Assembly: GCF_024138165.1 (NCBI RefSeq)
Contig: NZ_CP100000.1
Span: forward strand, 806,001-870,000
Direction: 5' to 3'
Source: Halorussus vallis
GTDB taxonomy: Archaea; Halobacteriota; Halobacteria; Halobacteriales; Haladaptataceae
DNA length: 64,000 nt
The position numbers and the translations under genes were made by a program. Shown piece after piece: positions 1,735 to 58,893 of this stretch. The notes under the pieces were generated by a model, which searched no databases, was not told the origin of the DNA, and saw nothing but the letters and a program-made list of their open reading frames with translations. Every line of letters begins with the position of its first letter. The first letter of the stretch is position 1.

Positions 1735-3255
1735 ATGGCACGCGACGAAATGGCACGCGATTCCGACTCCGACAAACTGCTCGACCGACGATCGTACTTG
1801 AAGATGGCCGGCGCGGCCGCCGCCTCGGTCACCGCAGCGGGCGTCACCGCCGACGGCGCGAAGGCGGCGTCCTACGACACCATCAAGGTCCCCGCAGGAA
1901 GCCGCCGCACCATCAAGGTGGGCCCCGGCGAGACGTTCGAGAACAAGCTCATCGACATCACCGCCGACGGCGCGCACGTCAAGCTTCTCACCCAGGGGAG
2001 CGGCTGGACGATCCGGAACGTCGGCCTCAAGGGTGTGAACAACGACCGGAGCGATACCTACGGCACGTTCTACCTGCGCTGCACCGACGGCGGCGAGGGC
2101 CTCGCGGAGAACATCTACATGGGCGACGGAACCGCCGACCGCGCGCACCACGCCGCGATGTCCGACTGGGACAACTCCGGCACCGTCACCATCCGGAACA
2201 TCCACGTCCAGGGCTGGGGCGCCGACGGGATGTACATGTCCCACGCGGGCGTCTCCCAGAGCCACGGCATGGGCGACACGCGAATCGAGAACGCCTACCT
2301 CAAGAACAACAACATCGAGAACGCCCGCCTCGGCACGCCCGGGTCGTACATCAAGGACTCGGTCGTCCACGTCGAGGGCGAGGACGCCGTCCAGTCGAAC
2401 GAGTCCGGCCAGAAGAACCCCCGCGGTCTCTGGTTCAAAGAGCAGTCGGGCATCAAGGCCATCAACTGCGACATCAAGGTGAACGGCGCGTACGCGGTGT
2501 TCGCCAGCGACAACGGCAGCGGCACGCTGGAGAACTGCCGGGTCGACGGCCGCATCGGCGGTCCCGTCACCAAGAAGAACGTCTCGGGCAACCCCGACGT
2601 CACCCCGCCGAAGGGTGTCCCGATGTCTGCCGAGGAGGCGGCCTCGGGAAACGTCGGCGGCGGTAGCACGAGCGCACCGACGACCAGCGACGACCAGCAG
2701 AACCAGCAGGACCAGCAGAACGCCCAGGGAACGCCCCTCGAACTGGTGTCGAGCGACGACGCCTCCAGCGAACAGTACCAGTTCACCGTCGAAGGCGCCG
2801 TTCACAGGAAGACTTCAGGCAGCGTCACGGCCGAGTCCGGCGACAAGTTCGCGAAGAACGACGACGGCACCGTCACCGTCTCGGGCGTGGCAGGCAACGG
2901 CTACGGCGACGCCTTCCTCGTCGACGGCTGTATCACCGCGATGGACATCGACGAGAGCAAATGGACGCTTCGCTACGACGGGAGCGAGGTCGCCGTCTCG
3001 GACATCGTCCTCCCGAACGCCCTCATCATCGACGGCAGCGACCACCCGCGACAGGCGAGCACGTACGAGTTCGCGGTGAGCGGGACGGCCCGCAAGAGTG
3101 CGGCGCTGGCCACGGTCAACCCCCACGACACCGTCGAGGGCGGAAAGATCTCCGGCCGAGTCATCGGCGGCAAGGACGCCTTCCGGTACTCCGGCGAGAT
3201 CACCGGCTTCACGCTGAGCGGTCCGGCGAACGTTCGCGTTCAGGACGGTTCCTGA
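1735..3255 (+). CDS. Tat-exported right-handed beta-helix surface protein, paralogue 1
   Basis: 506-residue exported protein. Residues 1-45 hold a twin-arginine signal (DRRSYLKMAGAAAAS) after an acidic leader MARDEMARD. Residues about 46-290 are Asn/Gly-rich repeats of the pectate-lyase-like parallel beta-helix type (TIRNVGLKGV, TIRNIHVQGWG, TRIENAYLKNNNIENARLG). A Gln/Ser/Thr-rich linker near 300-330 leads to two tandem copies of a beta module, each with a YxFxVxG opening and an SGxVxGxxxAFxxxGxIT-like core. The frame between the TATA box and the ATG at 1735 supports this start; MARD at 1747 is the alternative. No catalytic residues could be assigned, so enzyme versus adhesin or matrix protein is open. 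The paralogue at 3943 shares the whole layout and the promoter. Confidence 0.8.
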   Translation: MARDEMARDSDSDKLLDRRSYLKMAGAAAASVTAAGVTADGAKAASYDTIKVPAGSRRTIKVGPGETFENKLIDITADGAHVKLLTQGSGWTIRNVGLKGVNNDRSDTYGTFYLRCTDGGEGLAENIYMGDGTADRAHHAAMSDWDNSGTVTIRNIHVQGWGADGMYMSHAGVSQSHGMGDTRIENAYLKNNNIENARLGTPGSYIKDSVVHVEGEDAVQSNESGQKNPRGLWFKEQSGIKAINCDIKVNGAYAVFASDNGSGTLENCRVDGRIGGPVTKKNVSGNPDVTPPKGVPMSAEEAASGNVGGGSTSAPTTSDDQQNQQDQQNAQGTPLELVSSDDASSEQYQFTVEGAVHRKTSGSVTAESGDKFAKNDDGTVTVSGVAGNGYGDAFLVDGCITAMDIDESKWTLRYDGSEVAVSDIVLPNALIIDGSDHPRQASTYEFAVSGTARKSAALATVNPHDTVEGGKISGRVIGGKDAFRYSGEITGFTLSGPANVRVQDGS

Positions 3256-3942: not shown

Positions 3943-5565
3943 ATGGCACGCGACGAAATGGCACGCGATCTCGACTCCGACTCCGACTCTCTGCTGGACC
4001 GCCGCTCGTATCTCAAACTGGCCGGCGCGGCCGCCGCCTCGGTCGCCGCGACCGGGGCCGCGACCACCGCGAACGCGGCGTCCTACGAGACGATCAAGGT
4101 CCCCGCTGGCAGCAGCCGCACCTTTGAGGTCGGCGACGGTGAGACCTTCGAGAACAAGCTCATCGACATCTCCGCCGAGGGTGCTTCGGCCTACATCCAA
4201 GCCACGAGCAACAACTTCACGATCCGCAACGTCGGGTTCAAAGGCACGCACCCCGGCGACGAGTTCCCCGTCATGGTTTCGGTGCCGGACGCGAGCGCGA
4301 CCGGGACCGTCGAGAATCTCTACCTCGGCGACGGGAGCATCGAAGGGTCGTACTCCGGCGGCATCTTCGTCCAGTACTCGCCCGAACACAACGGCACCCT
4401 TCGACTGAAGAACGTCCACATCGCCCACTTCTCGAACAACGGGCTCTACGGCTCGGCCCCCGGCCACCGCGGCCAACAGGGCATCACGCACGTGGAGGAC
4501 TCGTTCTTCTACAGCAACAACATCGCCAACATCCGCCTGGGCAACGACACCGAACTCAACTACGTCCGCAACTGCACGGTGAAAGTCGACGGGACGACGC
4601 CCGCCTGCGACGCCAACTGCTCGTCGCCCGGCGCGGTCCGCAACCGCGGCGTCTGGGCGTGGACCGGCCGCGTCGAACTCGAGAACTGCGACATCCAGGG
4701 CGACCTCGAAACCATGGAAGGCGGCGAGATAACCCAGACGAGCACGAAGGTCGGCAGCTCCGCCGACACCACCCCGCCCGCGGGCACGCCGATGTCGGCC
4801 GAAGAAGCCGCCAGCGGCGGCGGCTCCGGGTCGGGCGGTTCGTCGGGTTCGGACGGTTCGTCGGGCTCCGGGTCTGACGGCTCGACCTCCGACGGCTCGG
4901 ACTCCTCCGGGTCGGGCGACTCCTCGGGCTCCGACGGCTCGACGACCGACTCCTCCCAACCATCAGGACGTTTGCTCGAACTCATCTCGGGCCAGGACAC
5001 CGACGCCGAACCCTTCGAGTTCACCGTCGAGGGGAGCGTCACGAAGGCGACCGCCGACGTCCAGCATCCCGCGGGTTACACCGACACCGTCACCGACAAC
5101 GGCGACGGCACCGTCACGGTATCCGGCACGGCGGGCCAGGGAACCGGCGACTCGTTCTGGGTCGACGGCTCCGTGACCGCGATGAACGTCACCGGGAGCA
5201 ACTGGACCATCCGCTTCGACGGCAGCGAGGTTTCGGTCGCCGAACTCACCGGTAGCTCGTCGGGTTCGGACGGCTCGGACTCCTCTGGGTCGGGCGACTC
5301 CTCCGGGTCGACGTCGCTCCCGAACACCATCCTCGTCGACGGCACCGAGCACCCCCGGCGGCTCAGCTCCTACGAGTTCTCGGTCACCGGCGACATCCGG
5401 AAGGACGGAACGCGGGGCTCCATCAACGCCCGCGACAACGTCTCCGGAAGCGACGCCGCCGGCCGGGTCATCAGCGGCAAGGACGCCTACCGGTTCTCGG
5501 GCGAGATCACCCACTTCCGACTCCAGGGTTCGGCCGTCGTGGAGGTCCGCGATGGTTCGCAGTGA
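3943..5565 (+). CDS. Tat-exported beta-helix surface protein, paralogue 2 with Gly/Ser linkers
   Basis: 540 residues. The MARDEMARD leader and the DRRSYLKLAGAAAAS twin-arginine signal match paralogue 1. A beta-helix of short Asn/Gly repeats (TIRNVGFKGT, LRLKNVHIAHFSNNG, VEDSFFYSNNIANIRLG) occupies residues about 45-275. A Gly/Ser/Asp linker near 285-340 separates it from the two C-terminal beta modules, and a second Ser/Gly/Asp linker is inserted between those modules (around residues 435-455), which paralogue 1 lacks. Two Cys in CDANCSSPG may form a disulfide. The linkers look like expanded simple repeats. Probably a surface or extracellular glycan-binding or glycan-modifying protein; activity unassigned. 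The 3' end overlaps the next gene by 14 bases. Confidence 0.8.
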   Translation: MARDEMARDLDSDSDSLLDRRSYLKLAGAAAASVAATGAATTANAASYETIKVPAGSSRTFEVGDGETFENKLIDISAEGASAYIQATSNNFTIRNVGFKGTHPGDEFPVMVSVPDASATGTVENLYLGDGSIEGSYSGGIFVQYSPEHNGTLRLKNVHIAHFSNNGLYGSAPGHRGQQGITHVEDSFFYSNNIANIRLGNDTELNYVRNCTVKVDGTTPACDANCSSPGAVRNRGVWAWTGRVELENCDIQGDLETMEGGEITQTSTKVGSSADTTPPAGTPMSAEEAASGGGSGSGGSSGSDGSSGSGSDGSTSDGSDSSGSGDSSGSDGSTTDSSQPSGRLLELISGQDTDAEPFEFTVEGSVTKATADVQHPAGYTDTVTDNGDGTVTVSGTAGQGTGDSFWVDGSVTAMNVTGSNWTIRFDGSEVSVAELTGSSSGSDGSDSSGSGDSSGSTSLPNTILVDGTEHPRRLSSYEFSVTGDIRKDGTRGSINARDNVSGSDAAGRVISGKDAYRFSGEITHFRLQGSAVVEVRDGSQ

Positions 5566-8971: not shown

Positions 8972-10056
8972 GCGACGTTCCCATCGCGGACCCGGAGCTT
9001 CGGGACCGCGAAATCGACGCCGCGGTCGAGACGCTCGAATCGGGGATGCTGGCCGACGGCCCGCAGGTCCGGGAGTTCGAAGCCGAGTTCGCCGGCTTCT
9101 GCGAGGCCGAACACGGCGTCGCCACCAGCAACGGGACGACCGCCCTCCACGCCGCGCTCGAAGCGCTCGAAATCGGCGAGGGCGACAAGGTGGTCACCTC
9201 GCCGTACTCGTTCGTGGCGAGCGCGAACGCGGTCCGACTCGCCGGCGCCGAACCGGTGTTCGCCGACATCGACCCCGACACGTTCAACCTCGAACCCACG
9301 GCGGTCGAGGAAGCCATCCGGCGCGAGGACGACGTGGCGGCCGTCATGCCGGTCCACCTCTACGGCCTCCCCGCCGAGATGGACCGCCTGCTCGAAATCG
9401 CCGACGAGTACGACCTCGCGGTGATCGAGGACGCCGCCCAGGCCCACGGCGCGGCGTACGAGGGCCGGAAGGTGGGGTCGTTCGGCGACGCCGCCTGCTT
9501 CTCGTTCTACCCCACGAAGAACATGACCACCGGGGAGGGCGGGATGATAACCACGAACCGCGAGGACGTCGCCGAACGCGCCGAGAGCTTCGTCAACCAC
9601 GGTCGGCCTCCCGAAGGCGGCTACGAGCACGTCCGGACCGGCCACAACTTCCGGATGACATCGACGGCCGCCGCCATCGGCCGGGTCCAGCTAGACCGCC
9701 TCCCCGACTACAACGAGGCTCGCCGCGAGAACGCCGCTCGCTTCGACGAGGCGCTGGAGGACGCCGACGTGGTGACGCCCTACGTACCCGAGGGCCGCCG
9801 CCACGTCTACCACCAGTACACGATTCGCGCCGACGACCGCGACGGCCTGGCCGACCACCTCGAAGCCGAGGGCGTCGGCACGGGCGTCTACTACCCGACG
9901 CCCATCCACGAACTGAAAGCCTACGCCGACGTCGACCACGCCGCGCCGGTCGCCGAGCGGACCGCCGGACAGGCGCTGTCGCTGCCGGTCCACCCGAATC
10001 TCACCGAGGAGGACCGCCGAACCGTCGTCGACGCCGTCACCGAATATCAGCCCTGA
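8968..10056 (+). CDS. WbpE-like PLP aminotransferase (DegT/DnrJ/EryC1 family)
   Basis: 362 residues, the usual length of sugar aminotransferases. PLP Lys is K184 in FSFYPTKNMTTGEGG; VIEDAAQAHGA carries the Asp that contacts the pyridine nitrogen; SNGTTALHAAL binds phosphate. In the Wbp route it transaminates the 3-keto group of UDP-2-acetamido-3-oxo-glucuronate, using glutamate. The start ATG at 8968 is fixed by the ATGA overlap with the acetyltransferase; the frame is open further upstream but lies inside that gene. It is followed 10 bases later by the 3-dehydrogenase, its coupled partner in bacteria. Confidence 0.88.
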   Translation: MSDVPIADPELRDREIDAAVETLESGMLADGPQVREFEAEFAGFCEAEHGVATSNGTTALHAALEALEIGEGDKVVTSPYSFVASANAVRLAGAEPVFADIDPDTFNLEPTAVEEAIRREDDVAAVMPVHLYGLPAEMDRLLEIADEYDLAVIEDAAQAHGAAYEGRKVGSFGDAACFSFYPTKNMTTGEGGMITTNREDVAERAESFVNHGRPPEGGYEHVRTGHNFRMTSTAAAIGRVQLDRLPDYNEARRENAARFDEALEDADVVTPYVPEGRRHVYHQYTIRADDRDGLADHLEAEGVGTGVYYPTPIHELKAYADVDHAAPVAERTAGQALSLPVHPNLTEEDRRTVVDAVTEYQP

Positions 10057-10066
10057 AACTCCAACC

Positions 10067-28028: not shown

Positions 28029-29960
28029 TCAGGCGTTGCGCATGTCGTCCACGCGGGACGACAGTTCGTCGATGGCCTCGGTCTGCTGGCGGGCCGCGTC
28101 CACGATGTCGGTCGTCGCCTCTTCGACCTCGCGGGTCCGGTCGCGGACGTCCTCGACGGTCGCCGTGACCTGCTCGACGTTCGCGGCCTGTTCGTCGTTG
28201 GCCTGCGCGACCTCTGTCACGCCGGTCGCGGCCTCCTCGACCGCGTCGGCGATCTCTTCGAGCGCCACCAGCGCGTCCTCGATCTCGTCGCCGGCGGTCT
28301 TGACCTGCTCGTTGGACTCCTCGACCGCGACGACCGTCTCGTTGGCCTGCGACTGGATGTCCTCGATGCGGGTCGCGATCTCCTCGGTGTGCTCGCGAGT
28401 CTCGTTCGCCAACTGCTTGACCTCGTCGGCGACGACCTCGAAGCCGCTGCCGGCCTCGCCCGCGCGGGCGGCCTCGATGTTGGCGTTGAGCGCGAGCAGA
28501 TTCGTCTGGTCGGCGACCTCCGCGATGACCTCGACCACGTCCTCGATCTCGTTCATCTGGGACTCGAGTTCGGTCACGGTTCCCACCAGGTCCTCGCTCA
28601 TCTCGATGACCTCGTCGGTCGCCTCGCGGGCGCCGGTGCTGGATTCGAGACCGCTGTCGGCCGACGCCTTGGCCTGCTCGGCCGCGGAGGCCACCTGGTC
28701 GGAACTGGCGGCGACCTCCTGCATGCTCGCCGAGAAGTTCTCCATCTGCGTGGCGACCTCCGACAGCTGATCGGTCTGTTCGTCCACGCGGCGTTCGATG
28801 ACGCGGGCCGATTCGGCGGCGTTCTCCACCGAGCCTTCGAGGTTGTCGGTCTGGTCGGCGACGCGCTCGGTCAACCGCTCGAACCGCTCGCCCATGGCGT
28901 TCACCTGGTCGACGACTTCGACCAGCGAGTCGTCGACGACGCCGTACTCGTCGTCGTACGTCGCCCGTGCGGAGAGGTTGCCCGTCTCCATCGCGGTCAG
29001 CGTATCGATGAGTTCCTCGACGAGCGCGGTGACGCCCTCCTGCCGGCGCACGTCTTCGGTGCGGTCGCGGATGGTTTCGACGACGGCGACCAACTCGCCG
29101 CCGTCGTACACCGGCATCGCCGAGAAGTCGATTTCTCGCTCCTTGCCGTTGGCGTCGACCATCGTACTGCTGTCGACGTACAGCGTTCGGTCGGCGTCGG
29201 CGCGTTCGACGCCGAACTCGCGGTCTGCGGTTTCGGGCGCCTCCGCCACCTTGTCGGCGAGCGTCTGCACCCGACGACCGTCGGGGTAGAACGCCTCGCT
29301 GACGTGGGTCGTGCCCAGCGCATCCTCGGCGGGGACGCCGGTCAGCTCTTCGAGCGCGGCGTTCCACGCCGCGACCTCCTCTCGCTGGGTGTCGAGCATG
29401 AACACCGGGACGCCCACGCCGTCGAGCAACTCGTCGTCGTCGACGTTGAGTTCGCCCTCGTCGTCGCCGCCGACGCCGTACACGTCGAGACCCGCCTCCA
29501 TGTCGGTGAACGTCGCCGACACCGACGACTGTAGCTCGCGTTCGGCGCGCTGGAGCTCCGACGCGACCGCATCGTTACCCGACCCGAGTCGGGCTTCGAG
29601 CTGTTCGAACGTCTCGGCGACGAGCGTCTGGACCCCCGCGCCGTAGGTGGCGGCGAACGTCGCCGGGGAGACGCCCGCGGTGGCGTGTCGCTTCCCGAGT
29701 TCCGGGGCGTCGGTGACCGCCTCATCCGGGTCGTTGACCGCGTGGCCGAGGTGGACCGCCTGCGCCTGCTGGAGGTCTTCGCTCACGTCGACTCCTCGAT
29801 ACGTTTCGGATAACATCGAAAGGGTGACGGTTCCGCTCGACGAGACGGATACCGTCTCTGTCTGCATACCGCCGTCGAACGTCACGCTCCGCTGGCGTTC
29901 GGCGTGACCGTCACCGGTTCGTAATCCGGATAGAACTTTCAGTAGCCTGTCCCTGACCAT
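28029..29960 (-). CDS. Soluble methyl-accepting transducer (Htr) with protoglobin-like and PAS regions
   Basis: 643 residues, no membrane segment. Residues about 50-165 are helical, and GKRHATAGVSPATFAATYG resembles the proximal-His helix region of HemAT protoglobins, though the domain looks short. A PAS-like domain follows at about 175-290 (VPVFMLDTQREEVAAWNAAL). A HAMP-like linker near 305-360 leads to the signalling coiled coil at 370-640, with the hairpin tip EVADQTNLLALNANIEAARA. Cytoplasmic sensor feeding CheA through CheW; signal unknown, possibly oxygen or redox. ATG at 29960 with a TATA box TTTTATAT 27-35 bases upstream. Located between the CheF and HEAT-repeat genes. Confidence 0.85.
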   Translation of the reverse strand: MVRDRLLKVLSGLRTGDGHAERQRSVTFDGGMQTETVSVSSSGTVTLSMLSETYRGVDVSEDLQQAQAVHLGHAVNDPDEAVTDAPELGKRHATAGVSPATFAATYGAGVQTLVAETFEQLEARLGSGNDAVASELQRAERELQSSVSATFTDMEAGLDVYGVGGDDEGELNVDDDELLDGVGVPVFMLDTQREEVAAWNAALEELTGVPAEDALGTTHVSEAFYPDGRRVQTLADKVAEAPETADREFGVERADADRTLYVDSSTMVDANGKEREIDFSAMPVYDGGELVAVVETIRDRTEDVRRQEGVTALVEELIDTLTAMETGNLSARATYDDEYGVVDDSLVEVVDQVNAMGERFERLTERVADQTDNLEGSVENAAESARVIERRVDEQTDQLSEVATQMENFSASMQEVAASSDQVASAAEQAKASADSGLESSTGAREATDEVIEMSEDLVGTVTELESQMNEIEDVVEVIAEVADQTNLLALNANIEAARAGEAGSGFEVVADEVKQLANETREHTEEIATRIEDIQSQANETVVAVEESNEQVKTAGDEIEDALVALEEIADAVEEAATGVTEVAQANDEQAANVEQVTATVEDVRDRTREVEEATTDIVDAARQQTEAIDELSSRVDDMRNA

Positions 29961-31322: not shown

Positions 31323-31997
31323 TTAGACCGTGACGGCGCTCTCCTGAGAGAGCGACTGCGGGACGTTCACGCGGTAGATGGTGACCGCACCGTACTGGGT
31401 GGTCAACTTGAGTTCGACTTCCTCACCCTCGCCGAGACGGCTGTCAGTGATCGCAGTCGTGTTCAACGAAATCTTGAACCGGTCGTCCTGCTCGTCGAGC
31501 ACCGGAACGGAATCAGACGGGTCCTTGATGGACGAGACGTTGAAGTAGTCGTACTTCCCAACATCTGCATCGGTCATCGTAGTCGGATTCTTCACCGCAT
31601 CGCTTGTGAACTTGCCGTTATCGGAGTCCGCAGTTCCGTCCCTGTGGTTCGGAACCTGAGTAAGCGTGGTCGCACGATTCGGGCCGATCCACTCGATGGT
31701 GGCGGTCGAGAGGTTGATGTCGTCGGAACCGGACCCGCGCATCACGGTCAGGTTAATGTAGTCAACCCTCTCGTCATTCGCGACGTTACCGAAACCGGAG
31801 ACGACCTGCACGCGGTTACTGACTTGCGCACTGCTCTCCTGACCGGTCTGCTCGCTCTTGGTCTGAAGGAAGCCGGCCGTGTTGATGAGGACGCCGGCGG
31901 CGATTGCCGCGACCAGCACCATCGCGATGAACACGATCAGCGTACCGATACCTACCTGACCTCTGTCGTTCAAGCGTTCTTTGAGTTTCTCTTTCAT
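31323..31997 (-). CDS. Archaellin (archaellum filament subunit)
   Basis: 224 residues. Class III signal [13 protein letters not shown], cut by the preflagellin peptidase after G13, then [20 protein letters not shown], the hydrophobic helix that forms the filament core. The outer beta domain carries four N-glycosylation sequons: N82 (NLT), N95 (NLS), N153 (NVS) and N179 (NTT). It is the only archaellin in the window and is separated by about 18 kb from the other arl genes. ATG at 31997 with the ribosome site AGGAG 8 bases upstream; TATA-like TTTAATAC lies at 32073-32066. Confidence 0.93.
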
Positions 31998-32065: not shown

Positions 32066-32073
32066 GTATTAAA
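32066..32073 (-). promoter_or_regulatory. Archaellin promoter (TATA box)
   Basis: TTTAATAC on the minus strand, 69-76 nt before the archaellin ATG, within an AT-rich 120-base stretch. The implied leader is about 40-45 nt and contains the ribosome site, so this gene is not leaderless. Confidence 0.5.
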
Positions 32074-32185
32074 TCTACGGCCCTAATTATCGCTCGTGAT
32101 ACTACGTTCGTTGATATAAATAGTCGGAGACAGTTGGCGTTCAGTCTGTCGATTTCTCCGTCGACGAGAACGTCTATCGTTTCGA

Positions 32186-32461
32186 CTACTCGGTGATACT
32201 GTAGATGACGAACAGGTAGCCGACGGTCGTGATGAGGTAGTTCACCGAGAGGAGCGTGCGCGTTTCGCCGAAGCCGGTCAGGAAGGCGCTGGCGGTGGTG
32301 GCGATGGCGGCCGCGACGATGAGCGTGAAGCCGATCGAGAGGTGAAGCATCTCGTCGCGGGAGGTGCGACTGTAGGCTCGCACGGCCAGCCCGACCATCG
32401 AGAGTCCGGCCGCCGCGAGGGTGAAACTGAACAGGACGTACAGCAGTTCTATCGTTCGCAT
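32186..32461 (-). CDS. Small three-helix membrane protein (DUF7521-like)
   Basis: 91 residues with three hydrophobic segments at about 6-27, 42-63 and 71-88. Begins [19 protein letters not shown]. Haloarchaea commonly encode such a protein directly after an ArsR-type regulator, as here (80-base gap). No catalytic residues. Function unknown; the pairing suggests it is a membrane partner or target of the regulator. Confidence 0.72.
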
Positions 32462-32884: not shown

Positions 32885-32886
32885 CA

Positions 32887-32904
32887 GTTATCGGGTTTGA
32901 TAAC
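32887..32904. promoter_or_regulatory. Inverted repeat, candidate operator of the ArsR-type regulator
   Basis: GTTATC at 32887-32892 and GATAAC at 32899-32904, spaced by 6 bases. It lies between the minus-strand TATA box (CCTTTTTATCC near 32912-32923) and the start codon at 32884, overlapping the expected transcription start. The half-site GATAACAGG is repeated at 33060, next to the cheW promoter. Confidence 0.5.
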
Positions 32905-33059
32905 AGGGGGATAAAAAGGTACCGTAGGGGACCAGTCACCCAACAGAAATTGACAGCTTTCGGAACGTCGGCAGCGACGGCGGACGCTACGAGAAGCCGC
33001 GTTTCGGCCCGCTTGACGACGAAATGTAGTGTAACGGCGCTCGCCGGTCGGGTTTCCGG

Positions 33060-33080
33060 GATAACAGGCGACAGTATAAA
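33060..33080 (+). promoter_or_regulatory. cheW promoter with adjacent GATAACAGG half-site
   Basis: GATAACAGG at 33060-33068 directly precedes the TATA box AGTATAAAG (TATAAA at 33075-33080), which is 26-31 nt before the ATG at 33106. The half-site matches one arm of the regulator operator at 32899. Confidence 0.55.
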
Positions 33081-33105
33081 GTACCCCCCGCGGGACCGAC
33101 CTACC

Positions 33106-33519
33106 ATGTCAGAAACCGTTGGCGACGTGCAGGTTCTGGAATTCCGACTGGAGGACCGGAAGTACTGCATCGACATCGCGCACGTCGACGAGATCGTGGA
33201 CAAGGACGACCTGACCCCGCTTCCGAACTCCGACCCTCGGGTCGAGGGCGTGATGGACCTCCGCGGGACGACGACGACGATCATCAACCCCAAGAAGGTC
33301 CTCGACATCGAGGAGACGCGGCCGGGCGAGCGGGTCGTGGTCCTGGAAACCGACGACGACGAGGGGAACGTGGGGTGGCTCATCGACGCGGTCGACCAGG
33401 TCGTGAGCATCGGGGACGCGACGGTCGACGAGTCCGTCGAGAGCGAGTCGGTGCGCGGCATCCTCCGGCAGGACGAGGGGTTCGTCGTCTGGGTGAAGCC
33501 AGAACAGATCAACGTCTGA
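33106..33519 (+). CDS. cheW: CheW coupling protein
   Basis: 137 residues, the SH3-like CheW fold and usual length. VQVLEFRLEDRKYCIDIAHV, PLPNSDPRVEGVMDLRGTTT and TIINPKKVLDI are the family signature blocks. Bridges CheA and transducers in the array. The window has a second CheW at 58220-58750, so two alternative couplers exist. ATG at 33106 follows the TATA box closely; nearly leaderless. Confidence 0.92.
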   Translation: MSETVGDVQVLEFRLEDRKYCIDIAHVDEIVDKDDLTPLPNSDPRVEGVMDLRGTTTTIINPKKVLDIEETRPGERVVVLETDDDEGNVGWLIDAVDQVVSIGDATVDESVESESVRGILRQDEGFVVWVKPEQINV

Positions 33520-39489: not shown

Positions 39490-41787
39490 TCAGCGCTCTC
39501 GGACGGTGACGCCGGAGAACTCGAAGCGAGCGCCGGTTCCGTCGGCGCCGGACGTCCGGGCGGTCGACCGCCCGAGGCGCACGTTCCACCCGTGGGTGTC
39601 GGCGACGTCGGCGACGATGGCGAGGCCGAACCCCGTCCCCTCCTCGGCGGTCGTGAAGCCGTGGTCGAAGATGCGCCCGCGGTCGTCTTCGCGGACGCCC
39701 GGCCCGTCGTCTTCGACGTAGAAGCCGGCCGGCGGCGACTCGACCGAGTCGCCGCCGGCCGAGTCGCCGAGCGGGCCCACCTCGACCGTCGCGTCGGGAC
39801 CGCCGTGTTGGACCGCGTTCCGAAACAGGTTCTCCAGCAACTGGCGCAGGCGTGGTTCGTCGGCCTCGACCGCGAAGTCGGTCCGGCAGTCCAGCGTCGC
39901 CGACCCCGTGTCGACGGTCGACCACGCCTCCTCGGCGACCGCACGGAGGTCGACCGCGTCGGGGTCCTCGACGACCGACCCGTACCGGGCGAGTTCGAGG
40001 AGGTTCTCGACCAGCGCGTCCATCCGGTCGAGCGCCCGGCGTAGCGGCGCGACGTGCGGGCTCTCCGTCCCCTCGGCGAGCATCTCGAAGCGACCCTGGG
40101 CGACGTTCAGCGGGTTGCGCAGATCGTGGGAAACCACGCTGGCGAACTCCTCCAGGCGTTCGTTCTGGCGTGCCAGCGTCCGCTCGCGTTCCTTCTGCTC
40201 GGTGATGTCGACGTAGACGGCGAACGCCTCGGTGTCGCCCTCCTGGACCGGCGCGGTGTGTAACAGGAAGTCCCGACCGCCGTCGCGGGTGGTTCGGTGG
40301 ACCTCGACGCCTTCGATTCGTTCGCCCACCGTCACCCGGCGGTTGATCGACCGGCCCACGTCGCGGCGGTCGTCGGGCAGGATGAAGTCGTCGACCGACT
40401 CGCCGACGATCTCGTCCGCGCTCCAGCCGAACACCTCCTCGAACGCGGGGTTGACCGACGCCCCGATGGGGTCGTCGCCCCGGAGGTCGTACCGGACTGC
40501 CGCGTTCGGGAGGTTCTCGAACAGCGCGGCGAACCGGTCGCGCTCGGCGCGCAACTCGCGCTCCGACTCGACGCGGCTCAGCGCCTCGGCGAGGTGGGTG
40601 GTGAGCAACTCGGCCAGTTCCCGGTCGTCGGCGTCGAACGCGTCCGGTTCGTCCGACACCGCCTGGAACACGCCGGACGCGCCGAACGGAACCGTCAGCG
40701 CCGAGCGGTAGCCGGTTTCGGCGGGCACCAGGTCGGTGGCGCGCACGTCACGGACGACGACGCTCTCGCCGGTGCGGTACGCCCGCGCCGCGAGGTTGCG
40801 CTCGGCGTCGACGCTCGTGGTGGCGTAGTAGCCGTCGGTCGGCACGCCCTTCGAGACGGCCTGCGGGACGAGTTCGCCGTCCACCACCTCGTCGACCGCA
40901 CAGAGGTCGAACGCGAGTATCTCTTCGGCCGCCTCCACCGCGAGGTCGTAGACGTCCTGGGCGGTCGCGCAGGCGACCGCGCGGGTGGCGACCTCGTGGA
41001 GCGCCTGGATCTTCCGTTTCGTCTCGCGCAGTTCCATCTGCGCTCGCTTGCGCTCGCTCACGTCCCGGAAGTACACCGACAGGCCGTCCTCGGAGGGGTA
41101 CACCCGGACCTCCAGCCAGGTGTCGTCCTGTAACACCGACTCGCACTCGACGGTCACCGGCCGCTGGCTGTCGAAGGCGCGCTCGAACGACTCGTAGAAC
41201 GTCTCGGCCTTCCGGTCGCCGAACACCGACCGGATGTCCCGGCCGACGAGTTCGCGCCTGTCGTAGTCGGTGAACGCCGCGGCCTGGCGGTTGACGTACG
41301 TTATCTCCCAGTCCTCGTCGAGCGCGTAGAAGGCGTCGGTGATGCGCTCGAAGATTCGACGGACCTGTTCGTTGGCCTCGGCGGCCTCCCGCTCGGCGCG
41401 GTGTTGGGCGACCGCGTTCTCGACGCGGTTGGCGAGCACCTCGTACTGGTCGGTGCCCGTCCCTTTCTGGAGGTAGTCGGTGACGCCCGCCGAGATGGCT
41501 TCGCTGGCGATCTCCTCGCTGCCCTTGCCCGTGAACAGCACGAACGGGAGGTCGGGTTCGACGTCCCGCACCGCGTCGAGAAACTCGAGACCGTTCGTCC
41601 GGGGCATGTCGTAGTCGCTCACCACGCAGTCGATTCGCTCGTCGCCGGTCACCCGGTCGAGTGCGTTCGAAGGAACGGTCTCGTAGACGGGTTCGATGTC
41701 GTCGGCGACTCGACGGAGGTACGTCGCCGTGAGTTCTGCGACCGACTCGTCGTCGTCGACCAGCAGAGCGCGGATGCGGTTCCCCAT
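39490..41787 (-). CDS. Hybrid sensor histidine kinase (REC-PAS-GAF-PAS-HisKA-HATPase)
   Basis: 765 residues from ATG 41787. Domain order: receiver at 1-120 with D58 in CVVSDYDMPRTNG; PAS near 145-260 (ITDAFYALDEDWEITYVN); GAF near 270-420 (ATRAVACATAQDVYDLAVEA); PAS near 430-545 (NLPNAAVRYDLRGDDP); HisKA with FASVVSHDLRNPLNVAQG (phospho-His); HATPase with LFRNAVQHGG, VEDDGPGV and TGFGLAIV. No membrane segment, so a cytoplasmic sensor. The N-terminal receiver is typical of haloarchaeal bacterio-opsin-activator and kinase families. A TTG 18 bases upstream is in frame but less likely. TATA-like AT-run at 41805-41822. Confidence 0.87.
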   Translation of the reverse strand: MGNRIRALLVDDDESVAELTATYLRRVADDIEPVYETVPSNALDRVTGDERIDCVVSDYDMPRTNGLEFLDAVRDVEPDLPFVLFTGKGSEEIASEAISAGVTDYLQKGTGTDQYEVLANRVENAVAQHRAEREAAEANEQVRRIFERITDAFYALDEDWEITYVNRQAAAFTDYDRRELVGRDIRSVFGDRKAETFYESFERAFDSQRPVTVECESVLQDDTWLEVRVYPSEDGLSVYFRDVSERKRAQMELRETKRKIQALHEVATRAVACATAQDVYDLAVEAAEEILAFDLCAVDEVVDGELVPQAVSKGVPTDGYYATTSVDAERNLAARAYRTGESVVVRDVRATDLVPAETGYRSALTVPFGASGVFQAVSDEPDAFDADDRELAELLTTHLAEALSRVESERELRAERDRFAALFENLPNAAVRYDLRGDDPIGASVNPAFEEVFGWSADEIVGESVDDFILPDDRRDVGRSINRRVTVGERIEGVEVHRTTRDGGRDFLLHTAPVQEGDTEAFAVYVDITEQKERERTLARQNERLEEFASVVSHDLRNPLNVAQGRFEMLAEGTESPHVAPLRRALDRMDALVENLLELARYGSVVEDPDAVDLRAVAEEAWSTVDTGSATLDCRTDFAVEADEPRLRQLLENLFRNAVQHGGPDATVEVGPLGDSAGGDSVESPPAGFYVEDDGPGVREDDRGRIFDHGFTTAEEGTGFGLAIVADVADTHGWNVRLGRSTARTSGADGTGARFEFSGVTVRER

Positions 41788-42056
41788 TACGCGAGACGTT
41801 ACCAATTATTATATAAAAAATCTCAGGAACTTTACGCCCCAATAGGTCGGGGAATATTGTCTCGTGGCCGAATCGCCGGATTCGAGTCGAATCCGTCGGA
41901 CTCCGTCGAATCGTAACGATTGCGATGGAACTCCGAGGAGAACGTCCGTCCCGATAGAACACCGCCGAACCGCTAAAACCGCGTCCGAATCGGGAAGTCA
42001 CGCCCGAACCGCAGCCACGCTCGACCCGCGAACCACGCCCGAACCGCTGAGGACGC
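41788..42056. other. Kinase promoter region and cheF 3' flank
   Basis: About 270 bases. An AT-only run near 41805-41822 (ATTATTATATAAAAAA on the plus strand) is the kinase TATA region, about 20-35 nt before its ATG. The rest shows no gene or repeat that I can support. Confidence 0.5.
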
Positions 42057-49488: not shown

Positions 49489-49929
49489 TTACTGCACCTC
49501 CGCCGACGCGGCAACGCCGTTCTCCGTCACGACCTTCACGCGCGAGGGTTCCCAATCGAGCGTGATGGTAAAGCGGAGGGTTTCGCCGGGGAGCCAGAGG
49601 TTGGTCTCTGCATTTCCACCGACAGTGAGCGGGTCCATCTTATCATGACCGGTGTAATTTCCATCTATAAGTATGTCGGTGTCATCGACCGACAGCGTCG
49701 TGGACCCGGTGTTGTTGACTTTCACGCTTAGAGTCTTAGAGTCCGATCCAGTGTTCGCGCTCGCGATGCTGATTGCCGTGTTCTGCGTAGTCAGCGCCTT
49801 GTCGGTGGTGTCCTCGTAGGCGGCGCCGACCATCTCGGCGCCGTTGTTCGCCGCCGTGTACGCAATGCCGAAGCAGGCGAATATCCCGAGGAACAGGATC
49901 ACCGTCGCACCGCTAACGCTGAATCCCAT
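49489..49929 (-). CDS. arlF: ArlF (FlaF) archaellum stator protein
   Basis: 146 residues from ATG 49929 (MGFSVSGATVILFLGIFAC); an ATG three codons earlier (49938) is possible. One N-terminal membrane helix, then a beta-sandwich with KTLSVKVNNTGSTTLSVDDT. ArlF binds S-layer protein in the archaea studied. Sequons NTGS-type N-N-T and GNYTG are present, so it could itself be glycosylated. Its start overlaps the end of arlCDE by 17 bases. Confidence 0.86.
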   Translation of the reverse strand: MGFSVSGATVILFLGIFACFGIAYTAANNGAEMVGAAYEDTTDKALTTQNTAISIASANTGSDSKTLSVKVNNTGSTTLSVDDTDILIDGNYTGHDKMDPLTVGGNAETNLWLPGETLRFTITLDWEPSRVKVVTENGVAASAEVQ

Positions 49930-51280
49930 CGCGCCCACCTCGGATCTGCGCGCAGTGTTCGACGATCTTCCGCTGGACGGCGTCGCCGGTCAGCTGGCTC
50001 AGGAAGGTGAGACTCTGGATGTGGTCGTCGATTTCGAGCGTCGCGGGTCCCGTCTCCTCGGCGTCGACCTCGTCCACGTCGGCGAACCCGCTCACGAACG
50101 CCAGCAGTTCCTCCTCGACCGAGTCGCTGATCCACCCGATGTCGCCGTAGTAGGTGATGGTCCGCACGGCGTCGTCGGCGCCGAACTCCGTGACCAAGAA
50201 CTCCAGCCACTCCATCACGACGAGGTCCGAGACGTAGCCGCTCGGGAGCGCCACGAGGTACGGCTTGCTGTCCAGCCCCGAGGAGTTCGACTGCACGGGG
50301 GTCGCGGCTTCGGCCTCCGCGGGCTGTTCGAACTCGAACTCGCCGTCGTCGGGTTCGTCGTCCACCGCGACCGGGTCGGAGTCGATGTCCAGGTCGTCGT
50401 CGAGGTCGTCGTCCGGAGAGGCGTCACCCTCCCCGTCGGCCCAGTCGGCTTCGCCGGACTCGTACTCCTCCTTGAGTTCCTGGAACGTCGAGCCACCGGC
50501 CTGACCGCCGCCGGCGTCCTCGCCGTCGTCGGCCTCCGCGTCCAGGTCGTCCAGTTCCTCGTCTGGGCTGTCGAAGCCGAGGTCGTCTCCCGCGTCCATC
50601 TCGTCGAAGTCGTCGTCCTCGAGATCGTCGTCCTCGTCGAAGTCGTCGTCGAAGAAGCTCTCGGCTTCGGCGTTGGCGACGTCCGAGTCGAGGTCGCCGT
50701 CGTCTTCCTCCTCGGCGTCGCCGTCGAACAGCCCGAAGCTTCCACCGTCTCCGCCGAGGGCCCCGCCGCCGCCGAACTCGCCGCCCTGTACGTCGTCGAC
50801 GAAGGGGTTGACGCCGCGGGTGACCATCTCGTAGATCTCCAACAGCTTCCGGACGTTCTCCTCCGTGTCGTCGACCTTCGAACTGATCTGTTCGTTCTCG
50901 CTCCTGACCGTCCCGACCGTCGAGGAGATCTCGGCGACCTCGTTTTCGAGGTCGTCGATGCGGTTCTCGAGTTCCTGGGTCGGGCCGCCACCGCCGCCCA
51001 TGGCGAACTCGTCGTCGCCGCCGTCGGCCCAGTCGTCCATGCCGCCGTCCATGCCGCCACCCATGCCGTCGTCCATGCCGCCGAAGTCGTCCATCCCGTC
51101 GTCGATACCGTCGTCCATTCCGTCGCCCATACCGTCTCCGAACAGGTCGTCATCACTACCGCCGCCATCGGCGTCGGCGCTCTCACCTTCTTCCTCGTCC
51201 ATGAAATCCATGATACCCATCGCGACCATCCCCGTTCCAAAGAGGTGAACGAACTGGTCGCTGAGACCGATAAGTTTCAT
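49913..51280 (-). CDS. arlCDE: ArlCDE (fused FlaC/FlaD/FlaE) switch-ring protein with Met/Gly/Asp repeats
   Basis: 455 residues from ATG 51280 (MKLIGLSDQFVHLF). Order: short N-terminus; a Gly/Met/Asp repeat at about 50-90 (DGMGDGMDDGIDDGMDDFGG); coiled coil TQELENRIDDLENEVAEI (FlaC-like) near 100-150; a long acidic linker to about 330; then the FlaD/E domain (KPYLVALPSGYVSDLVVMEWLEFLV and TITYYGDIGWISDSVEEELL). In haloarchaea the fused protein relays the CheY/CheF signal to the motor. First gene of the arl operon, with its own TATA box. Confidence 0.9.
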   Translation of the reverse strand: MKLIGLSDQFVHLFGTGMVAMGIMDFMDEEEGESADADGGGSDDDLFGDGMGDGMDDGIDDGMDDFGGMDDGMGGGMDGGMDDWADGGDDEFAMGGGGGPTQELENRIDDLENEVAEISSTVGTVRSENEQISSKVDDTEENVRKLLEIYEMVTRGVNPFVDDVQGGEFGGGGALGGDGGSFGLFDGDAEEEDDGDLDSDVANAEAESFFDDDFDEDDDLEDDDFDEMDAGDDLGFDSPDEELDDLDAEADDGEDAGGGQAGGSTFQELKEEYESGEADWADGEGDASPDDDLDDDLDIDSDPVAVDDEPDDGEFEFEQPAEAEAATPVQSNSSGLDSKPYLVALPSGYVSDLVVMEWLEFLVTEFGADDAVRTITYYGDIGWISDSVEEELLAFVSGFADVDEVDAEETGPATLEIDDHIQSLTFLSQLTGDAVQRKIVEHCAQIRGGRDGIQR

Positions 51281-51314: not shown

Positions 51315-51411
51315 TCCCCCTGAGTTATCAGCTCTGATACTCCGCGTCTGACGGAGACATTCGGGGCGTAGAGGCCCCGTAAAGCTCGTTCTCACCGCCA
51401 CCTATCGACTA

Positions 51412-56665: not shown

Positions 56666-57712
56666 TTATCCGTCCTCGCTGATAGTCGTCAGAATCGCCT
56701 TGCTGATCTCGTCGGCCGGCAACACGCGGTCGACGCAGCCGGTTTCGATGGCTCGCGCCGGGATGCCGAACACGGAGCAGGTCTCCTCGTTCTGGGCGAG
56801 GGTCGCGCCGTCGACGGCCTTGATGGCCTCGATGCCCGCCGCGCCGTCGCCGCCCATGCCGGTCAGCACGACGCCGGTCAGGGGGTCCGAGATCTTCTCG
56901 GCGGCCGTCTCCATCGTCACGTCGATGGCGGGCCGCACCCCGTGCATCGGGTCGTCCTCCGTGAGCCGAAGGCGCAGGCGACCCCGACCGTAGCCGGCGA
57001 CCGCCAGGTGGTAGCCGCCCTTGGCGACGACGGCCTCGCCGCCGCCGATTCGCATCCCGTCCTCGGCCTCCGAAACCGAGTACTCGCTCCGGCGGTCGAG
57101 TCGCGCCGCGAACCGCTCGGTGAAGCCGTCCGGCATGTGCTGGACGACGAGCACCCGGAGGTCGGCCTCGCGGGGGAGGTCGGAGACGACTCGCTCGACA
57201 ACCCGCGGGCCGCCGGTCGACGCGCCGATGACCACGGTCGGGTTCTCGACGTAGCCGTGGTCGGGTTCGATGGTCCCCGGGGTCGGGTCGGCGTCGGCCG
57301 GTTCGGCGACCGACGAGAGGTCGGCGCGGGTCGCCGACCGGACCGTCTCCACCAGCGTCTCCCGGTGGGCCGAAATCTCGGTCGAGACTTCGCCGCCCGG
57401 CTTGGCGAGGAAGTCGACCGCGCCCTTCTCCAGCGCCTCGAAGGTGGCCTCCGCCCCGTCCTTCGTGTGGGCGCTCAGCATCACCACGGGCGTGGGGGTC
57501 GTCGCCATGATCTCCTCGACGGCCTCGATGCCGTTCATCCGGGGCATCTCGACGTCCATCGTCACCACGTCCGGTTCGTGGTCGGCCACCGCCGCCACGG
57601 CCCGTTCGCCGTCGCTGGCCTGCTCGACGACGTCGATGCCGCCGTCGTCCAGAATGTCGGAGATGACCGTCCGCATGAAGTGGGAGTCATCGACGACGAC
57701 TGCCTTCGTCAT
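56666..57712 (-). CDS. cheB: CheB chemoreceptor methylesterase
   Basis: 348 residues. Receiver at 1-120 with D53 (TMDVEMPRMNG); methylesterase domain at 158-345 with the catalytic S165 (VVIGASTGGPR), H192 (VVQHMPDGF) and D289 (LTGMGGDGAAG). Removes methyl groups from transducers when phosphorylated. ATG 57712 overlaps the cheY stop by ATGA; a longer in-frame reading lies within cheY. Six bases before cheA. Confidence 0.95.
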   Translation of the reverse strand: MTKAVVVDDSHFMRTVISDILDDGGIDVVEQASDGERAVAAVADHEPDVVTMDVEMPRMNGIEAVEEIMATTPTPVVMLSAHTKDGAEATFEALEKGAVDFLAKPGGEVSTEISAHRETLVETVRSATRADLSSVAEPADADPTPGTIEPDHGYVENPTVVIGASTGGPRVVERVVSDLPREADLRVLVVQHMPDGFTERFAARLDRRSEYSVSEAEDGMRIGGGEAVVAKGGYHLAVAGYGRGRLRLRLTEDDPMHGVRPAIDVTMETAAEKISDPLTGVVLTGMGGDGAAGIEAIKAVDGATLAQNEETCSVFGIPARAIETGCVDRVLPADEISKAILTTISEDG

Positions 57713-58071
57713 GCGGAGATGACGTCGTTGATGGCGTCCATCACGCTGGGTTTCTGGAAGGGCTTCGTGATGTAGCCGTCCGCGCCCGCCTTGATCGCCT
57801 TCTTCATCTTCTCTTCCTGCCCGATGCTCGTACACATGATGACGTTCGAGTCGGGGTTGTTGTCCTTGATCTCGGTGGTGGCCTCGATGCCGTCGCGGAT
57901 CGGCATCACGATGTCCATCATCACGAGGTTCGGCTGGGTCTCGTTGTACATCTCGACGGCCTCCACCCCGTTTTCTGCTTCTCCGGCTATCTCGAACTCC
58001 TCTTCGAGAATTTCCCGAAGGAGATTCCGCATAAATTCTGAGTCGTCAACGATTAGTACGTTCTTTGCCAT
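57709..58071 (-). CDS. cheY: CheY response regulator
   Basis: 120 residues, a bare receiver: acidic pair D9/D10, phosphoacceptor D53 (LVMMDIVMPIRDG), T81 and K103 (ITKPFQ). Signals through CheF to the ArlCDE switch complex. First gene of the che block, with a TATA-like box upstream at 58104-58114. Confidence 0.95.
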   Translation of the reverse strand: MAKNVLIVDDSEFMRNLLREILEEEFEIAGEAENGVEAVEMYNETQPNLVMMDIVMPIRDGIEATTEIKDNNPDSNVIMCTSIGQEEKMKKAIKAGADGYITKPFQKPSVMDAINDVISA

Positions 58072-58114: not shown

Positions 58115-58219
58115 GCTCCCCTGCAATTATCACGGCTGATGTTCGCCGATATCTCTCTTCACGGCGGCCGAAACGGCTGATTCGCCGAGGAGCGACGCGG
58201 CCGAAAATCCCGGTCGGTA

Positions 58220-58750
58220 CTATTTCAGTTCGCCGATAATCACGTCGACGTCCACCCAGACGACCAGGTCGAGTTCGCCGTCGTCGTCGGGCTTGCGGAT
58301 GATGCCCCGCGAGACTTGCTCTTCGATGCCGCGGGTGTCGAGGTTCGAGAGGTCGTCGTCGGTGTCGATCTGGTGTTCGGTGTAGGTCGCGACCTCCAGC
58401 ACCTCGTCGACCCGGATGCCGATCTTCTGCTTGTCGTCGGGGCGGTCCAACACCAGGACGTTCTGCTCTTCGCTCGCGGGCGCCTCGCCGTCGACGCCGA
58501 GGAACGTCCGGGGGTTGATGATGGCGGTCGTCTCCCCGCGGAGGTCCATCACGCCGTCGATGGAGTCGGGCGTCCGGGGGATACGGGTCACCTTCTTTAT
58601 CTCGACGATGCTGTCGACCTCGCCGATGTCGATCGCGCAGTAGTCCTCGCCGAGGCGAAACTCCACGACCTGCCGAGTTTCGACGGTGGCGTCGACGGGC
58701 GTCTCGGCGGCGGTCTCGCCCGCGTCGGGGTCCGTCTCCTGTGCCTCCAT
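58220..58750 (-). CDS. cheW: CheW coupling protein
   Basis: 176 residues. QVVEFRLGEDYCAIDIGEVD, TRIPRTPDSIDGVMDLRGET and TAIINPRTFLGVDG are the CheW blocks. An acidic N-terminal 35 residues and a disordered acidic insert near the C-terminus distinguish it from the copy at 33106. Start ATG 58750 preferred: an upstream TTTTATG (58784-58790) is the probable TATA box, which rules out the in-frame ATG at 58786 and leaves 58771 doubtful. Confidence 0.9.
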   Translation of the reverse strand: MEAQETDPDAGETAAETPVDATVETRQVVEFRLGEDYCAIDIGEVDSIVEIKKVTRIPRTPDSIDGVMDLRGETTAIINPRTFLGVDGEAPASEEQNVLVLDRPDDKQKIGIRVDEVLEVATYTEHQIDTDDDLSNLDTRGIEEQVSRGIIRKPDDDGELDLVVWVDVDVIIGELK

Positions 58751-58893
58751 AATGCTCTCTGCTTGGTACATCGGAGCCCAGTACATAAAACCCGCGCCCC
58801 GTCTCTCGCAGGTGATAATCGGCGAAGCGGCACGACGACCGACCGGCCGCCCAGACGCGCAGACGCCCGGACGACCGCCGCCCGTATCGCGGT

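Follow-up and report, generated by a model that had tools for sequence, protein, structure and literature searches.

We report that a conserved palindrome at the promoter of a small winged-helix regulator gene in Halorussus vallis is probably a weak operator for the motility regulator CsmR, giving negative autoregulation beside stronger sites that lie further upstream within the motility promoters. Haloarchaeal swimming control was without a central regulator until CsmR was described (PMC13286277). The site at the regulator's own promoter is real and conserved, and as an operator in front of the gene for the regulator itself it is of an ordinary kind. Judging from the genomes compared here, what appears to be new for CsmR is an own-promoter site in a blocking position, in several families and not in the model lineages examined.

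RESULTS

The regulator and its gene cluster

The window, by which we mean the whole 64,000-nucleotide stretch of DNA that was analysed, holds an archaellum and chemotaxis cluster. Archaellin, DUF7521, the regulator and cheW are followed by arlCE-F-G-H-I-J and by a chemotaxis block that starts with cheY (Table 1). Genes were called by a codon model and Pfam was run on part of them. The che and arl genes that have no Pfam match bear names that we assume from family resemblance, and the genes after cheY we likewise take to be cheB, cheA, cheC, cheC, cheD and cheR. Elsewhere in the window, the neighbouring ORFs 1735-3255 and 3943-5565 have a near-identical N-terminus (MARDEMARD...DRRSYLK.AGAAAASV) and are probably secreted paralogs.

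Table 1. Genes, promoter elements and CsmR-type sites of the window discussed in the text (CsmR motif: TATCA(N4)TGATA).
Feature	Position	Strand	Remarks
Methyl-accepting transducer gene	28029..29960	-	PF00015
Weak CsmR-type site TATCGCGCGTGAAA	30006..30019	-	2 mismatches; 45 bases before transducer ATG
Archaellin gene arlA	31323..31997	-	PF01917; two genes downstream of regulator
CsmR-type site TATCACGAGCGATA	32088..32101	-	90 bases before arlA ATG; 14 bp before TATA box (32067-32073)
DUF7521, small membrane-type protein	32186..32461	-	Pfam PF24365; downstream of regulator
Regulator gene, 113 aa	32543..32884	-	Best read as CsmR ortholog; winged helix HTH_20; Pfam, homology, structure prediction
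Palindrome GTTATC-N6-GATAAC	32887..32904	.	Proposed autoregulatory CsmR operator; exact match; position conserved in family
Core TATCA-AACC-CGATA within palindrome	32889..32902	-	One mismatch to published CsmR motif
TATA-like TTTTTAT, regulator promoter	32911..32917	-	33 bases before ATG; 31-33 bases in 18 Halorussus loci
Second GATAACAGG, half-site before adjacent cheW	33060..33068	+	Not conserved; probably not functional as CsmR site
Adjacent cheW	33106..33519	+	PF01584
arlCE, first gene of arlCE-F-G-H-I-J	49913..51280	-	PF04659, PF05377, gene calls
Exact CsmR motif TATCAGAGCTGATA	51326..51339	-	45 bases before arlCE ATG; exact in 18/18 genomes
cheY	57709..58071	-	PF00072, gene calls
CsmR-type site CATCAGCCGTGATA	58128..58141	-	56 bases before cheY ATG
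Second cheW-like gene	58220..58771	-	Gene calls; similarity to first cheW
CsmR-type site TATCACCTGCGAGA	58804..58817	-	2 mismatches; before second cheW

The regulator has a winged-helix fold of the ArsR kind, as indicated by its HTH_20 match and by fold comparison. The best of five predicted models is a winged helix (pLDDT 81.1, pTM 0.71; the other models range from pLDDT 65.8 down to 37.5), and for this predicted model the closest solved fold among the matches listed is Phr of Pyrococcus furiosus (PDB 2P4W), an ArsR-type repressor (Z 12.5, 94 residues, rmsd 2.6). Several ArsR-type structures match at Z of about 9-10. The protein contains no Cys or His at all, and hence none of the metal-binding sites of ArsR/SmtB sensors. 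Pfam at E<=0.001 placed no Lrp/AsnC model on it and no Lrp/AsnC chain stands among the fold matches listed, results with which the Lrp class is still compatible; a PDB search by sequence alone gave no useful match. The authors of CsmR assign their protein to the Lrp/AsnC class, though Phr is among its structural hits (PMC13286277).

CsmR (HVO_1209), published in June 2026, is described as a 13 kDa winged-helix regulator that motility requires in Haloferax volcanii, where it controls both motility and shape, and its gene lies before arlA1, arlA2 and cirA (PMC13286277). The Halorussus regulator shares 60% identity over 109 residues with the protein of a gene order of this type, in which the regulator gene precedes two archaellin genes and, in the place expected for cirA, a gene of the KaiC family; the genus with this order is probably Haloferax. 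The Halorussus protein is most plausibly the CsmR ortholog. Both are small winged-helix proteins encoded beside archaellin genes, although in Halorussus the regulator gene is divergent from cheW and lies before DUF7521 and arlA. An earlier note on this DNA had proposed a candidate motility regulator here, which the gene neighbours and the probable orthology support; as CsmR is published, the candidate is not new.

All 18 genomes of the genus have the regulator, as do 26 of 28 in the family, and a profile search found it in 247 of the 292 genomes sampled from the class, a count that includes the paralogs of family f4 described below. Among 40 sampled loci, 29 have an archaellin within the 10-kb stretch around the regulator and 19 have DUF7521 adjoining it. 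DUF7521 has no assigned function and is of membrane type, and we regard it as a candidate partner of the regulator. A literature search on DUF7521 found no paper. In three loci (L097, L103 and L114) a CsmR-type site lies 43-49 bases upstream of it.

The palindrome at the regulator's own promoter

GTTATC-N6-GATAAC is present before the regulator gene as the earlier note had reported, and GTTATCGGGTTTGATAAC is its sole exact copy both in the window and in the 5.05-Mb genome. When up to two mismatches are allowed, the window has four matches to GTTATCGGGTTTGATAAC against 0.55 expected, a number that 0 of 100 shuffles reached. We rejected the palindrome as the genome-wide form of the operator because it is too strict, with one exact and four one-mismatch places compared with one for the reversed control.

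The form that runs across the regulator's sites is instead TATCA(N4)TGATA, and not GATAACAGG, the extended half-site that the earlier note took for a shared word. TATCA(N4)TGATA is the reported ChIP motif of CsmR, present in 50 of 65 peaks (PMC13286277). Read on the regulator's strand, the palindrome is GT-TATCA-AACC-CGATA-AC, with the same four-base spacer as the CsmR motif. At up to two mismatches the window contains eight matches to this motif against 2.25 expected, and again no shuffle in 100 reached that number. Seven of them precede genes, namely the regulator, archaellin, arlCE (an exact match), cheY, the second cheW, the transducer and a PAS/response-regulator protein, while the eighth (10045-10058) spans the junction of two genes. 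The transducer and PAS/response-regulator matches are weak; the latter, a two-mismatch site at 41800-41813, lies 12 bases before its gene (39490-41787), a place that resembles that of the regulator's own operator.

The palindrome ends 2 bases and the TATCA/CGATA core 4 bases upstream of the regulator's ATG, and the core starts 15 bases past the first base of TTTTTAT. This geometry is kept in 18 Halorussus rows, where the site starts 13-15 bases past the TATA box's first base and stops 4 bases short of the ATG, although little of the site remains in L021. The transcript is expected to be leaderless or nearly so, from the putative start position. Lying between the TATA-like element and the ATG, the palindrome would therefore fill the stretch from the TATA box to the expected start of such a transcript.

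CsmR-type sites at motility genes

In Halorussus the same motif recurs at other genes of the cluster, in a different place. In every one of the 18 genomes the arlCE site keeps its exact sequence and its distance to the ATG, while its four spacer bases vary freely. The archaellin site is exact in 15 and has one mismatch in 1 of the 16 rows parsed among 18 loci. At cheY there is one mismatch in 15 of 17 rows and two in the other 2, and at the second cheW two mismatches in all 16 rows parsed of 17, after five cross-hit rows to the other cheW had been dropped. No site at two mismatches or fewer was found in 81 Halorussus promoter rows of five other cluster genes: DUF7521 (0/18), cheR (0/17), cheB (0/17), a HEAT gene (0/17) and ORF 58894 (0/12).

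These sites all lie before the TATA box. The distance is 13-14 bp at archaellin (16 rows), 14 bp at cheY (17 rows) and 10-13 bp at the second cheW (16 rows), and in the six rows measured for arlCE the site is 12 bp before an AT-rich heptamer and 14 before TTAAT. In sister genera an exact site lies 91-92 bases before archaellin in 5 + 2 loci that have archaellin there, the 2 coming from the same organisms as some of the 5. In all four Haloferax-type loci, archaellin and cheY are each preceded by an exact motif. H. volcanii CsmR (PMC13286277) and the Halorussus regulator share both the motif and its place upstream of BRE and TATA at archaellum and chemotaxis promoters.

Across the H. vallis genome the motif is mildly enriched, with 27 places at one mismatch or fewer compared with 19 for the reversed pattern. 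Over 26 chosen genomes, exact matches number 83 against 20 for the control; Halobacterium-type genomes have 0-1 and some others none. One-mismatch sites in H. vallis are also present upstream of a BAT/HTH_10 regulator gene (L044, 43 bases), a histidine kinase gene (L228, 43 bases) and a TBP gene (L224, 110 bases); these are possible further targets or chance matches. Three archaellin genes of the genome have one-mismatch sites as well (L045, L047 and L049).

Conservation and reach of the own-promoter site

The earlier note had named conservation upstream of orthologous regulator genes as the test that could refute its reading. At two mismatches or fewer of the core, the own-promoter site is kept in 22 of 26 family genomes, with its position unchanged. 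It differs from the motif by one mismatch in 11 genomes, two in 11, three in 3 and five in 1, and is exact in none. The CGATA mismatch is retained in the family, and most Halorussus have TTTCA-N4-CGATA, with two mismatches. Among the 18 Halorussus the site has three mismatches in 3 genomes and five in one (L021), where it seems to have been lost.

More widely, and among the matches listed, a site at two mismatches or fewer is found at this place in 35 of 66 loci outside f4, representing 12 of 31 genera, compared with 0.4% per locus in shuffles; a half-site is found in 42 of the 66, compared with 2.8%. These 66 loci, drawn from the matches listed, were hand-picked to cover genera rather than sampled at random, and as related genomes are not independent the shuffle rates overstate the evidence. 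Two loci were kept out of the counts: L024, a duplicate copy in assembly G001, and L069 (Halodesulfurarchaeum), whose two-mismatch match overlaps its own ATG. Assembly G001 shows the regulator locus at two contig ends (L022 and L024), probably an assembly overlap.

Family f3 keeps the half-site in 8 of 8 loci and the full site at two mismatches or fewer in 3. Four of the eight have a further site at two mismatches or fewer, which covers BRE and whose end is 1-2 bp upstream of the TATA box; the regulator's TATA box in f3 is flanked by two sites. A near-start site is absent from the four Haloferax-type loci examined (in a genus with 15 genomes), five of Halobacterium type, two of f10 and two of f9. 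It is absent too from the four loci of g10, g52 and g62, genera that share the Haloferax-type gene order.

Paralogous copies

Thirty copies of the regulator in family f4 form a separate clade, in a tree without a clean outgroup (five outside paralogs are not monophyletic), and an archaellin lies within 1.5 kb of none of the 30. Three genomes hold two copies; there it is the second copy, outside this clade, that is linked to arl genes, and this copy has no near-start site. We rejected the 30 as orthologs of the regulator and left f4 out of the 66-locus count. A CsmR-type site lies 18-21 bases before the ATG in 26 of the 30 paralogs (L193-L222). Their promoter is strikingly conserved, CCACAAGATTCA-N4-TGATAATT, with no obvious TATA box (e.g. 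L206). Haloferax-type csmR promoters (GGTAACCAACACATT-like or close variants; L106, L107, L131 and L132) also have no obvious TATA box and resemble the promoter of the f4 paralogs. One in six wider stretches has an f4 paralog near che genes (L242).

DISCUSSION

A model for the own-promoter site

Sites of TATCA(N4)TGATA type occur at the positions given above, are conserved, and accompany the regulator. Binding in Halorussus, repression, the order of affinities and the transcription start we infer from anatomy and conservation. A CsmR dimer would bind sites of this type. At arlCE, archaellin, cheY and the second cheW the site is upstream of BRE and TATA, where CsmR could act on the assembling transcription complex and leave the core promoter uncovered. 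At its own gene, a dimer bound between the TATA box and the start codon may keep RNA polymerase off or prevent promoter opening. Since the own site fills that stretch, a bound dimer would block it, which suggests negative autoregulation; negatively autoregulated repressors likewise have operators that cover the core promoter or the start of their own gene. In all 26 family genomes the own site is off consensus. Nearly every arlCE and archaellin site, by contrast, matches it exactly, which makes the own site probably the weaker of the two kinds. The place after the TATA box and the mismatch counts together lead us to read it as a weaker, blocking site, one that might be filled last and cap CsmR after the motility promoters have been served. 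The self-repression proposed in the earlier note is in this sense the likeliest role for a site in that position, as judged from the sequence, and the site itself is firmly there.

Some published results bear on this model. Steady csmR transcript levels in H. volcanii are a point against autoregulation (PMC13286277). The main text of that paper makes no mention of csmR autoregulation, feedback or the gene's own promoter. Deletion of csmR raises target transcripts in H. volcanii (PMC13286277), which speaks against taking activation from the upstream sites for granted.

We put forward a broader version more tentatively, at somewhat less than even confidence: that CsmR works in two ways according to where its site lies, serving motility promoters from upstream of BRE and shutting its own gene from after the TATA box. 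The weaker own site would then make a conserved homeostatic loop of the haloarchaeal motility program, one that is old in several families and that Haloferax and Halobacterium have lost or replaced. These are the two model lineages, and work on models would miss the loop if this were true. The Halorussus own promoter has a site after its TATA box whereas the Haloferax-type promoters examined have none.

Alternative explanations

It is unlikely that CsmR bound at its own promoter activates or fine-tunes the gene instead of repressing it. The authors of CsmR do not decide between activation, repression and a context-dependent mix of the two, so that the sign of its action in H. volcanii is unsettled, and overexpression of csmR there raises motility (PMC13286277). 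Against activation, every own-promoter site in the family lies after the TATA box and the extra sites of f3 lie over BRE; no own-promoter site occupies the place 10-14 bp upstream that the motility promoters use.

Quite unlikely, too, is that the palindrome belongs to another winged-helix regulator and merely resembles the CsmR motif. Haloarchaea are rich in related regulators, and a first look at this genome gave 46 candidate stretches for them. Nevertheless, the half-sites, their spacing and the presence throughout the family agree with the motif obtained by ChIP for the ortholog, and in many genera the site precedes the gene for that very regulator.

The earlier note had gone further and suggested that one protein, bound at both copies of GATAACAGG, could repress the regulator and at the same time tune the adjacent cheW. 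This we consider very unlikely. The 9-mer does repeat exactly, at 32899-32907 and again 7 bp before TATAAAG (33075-33081), as the note had observed. When the other 198 intergenic bases were shuffled 2000 times, the 9-mer came up again in 0.1% of the shuffles and the 6-mer in 9%, figures that come from a test made after the repeat had been noticed. The second copy is unconserved and has no partner half-site. It lies inside about 110 extra intergenic bases that are present in the window's genome and in one relative (G006) and absent from the other 16 genomes of the genus that were aligned, and G006 has AGTTACAG where the window has GATAACAG, which alters the half-site. The second copy is for these reasons at best a private half-site. 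The gap between regulator and cheW in Halorussus is usually 113-161 bases, with a conserved GGAACAGTAAAG-like element. None of the 18 Halorussus loci shows a full CsmR-type site belonging to the adjacent cheW; the matches at two mismatches or fewer that were scored for it are the regulator's operator read from the opposite side. Another 17 rows under this gene were cross-hits between the two cheW genes and were dropped. As a word, GATAACAGG is not enriched in the window (2 matches at one mismatch or fewer, compared with 4.18 expected), and with its second copy unconserved we rejected it as a regulatory word. The tuning of cheW that the note proposed finds no support at this gene, whereas a different cheW, at 58220-58771, does have a conserved two-mismatch site.

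An RNA hairpin or a chance palindrome is extremely improbable, even though an upstream start could leave the repeat partly transcribed. Changes in one arm are not balanced in the other, with GTTTTC facing GATAAC or GATAAT in 11 of the 26 family rows, and on this ground we rejected the hairpin; conservation at the 66 loci also exceeds that of the shuffles.

Relation to other archaeal regulators

The fold and the proposed role of the own-promoter site recall known archaeal repressors. Phr, the closest match in fold, represses its own gene; it differs in being a heat-shock regulator with a different DNA sequence of its own. Phr is reported to bind over the transcription start and repress, and LrpA of P. 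furiosus represses its own gene in that same manner (PMC6316755). LrpA differs in belonging to the Lrp/AsnC family and in its 46-bp site, and the account of it describes no link to motility (PMC6316755). EarA, the euryarchaeal archaellum regulator, also exerts winged-helix control over archaellum genes, but according to the CsmR authors it has no sequence or structural similarity to CsmR (PMC13286277).

Implications

These results extend the CsmR regulon to other families and lead us to predict DUF7521 as a linked component. As one genome holds the same motif in two fixed geometries, and many natural variants of it exist, the question of whether CsmR activates or represses can be tested by moving a single site. 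They also suggest that the usual model strains may lack the feedback site.
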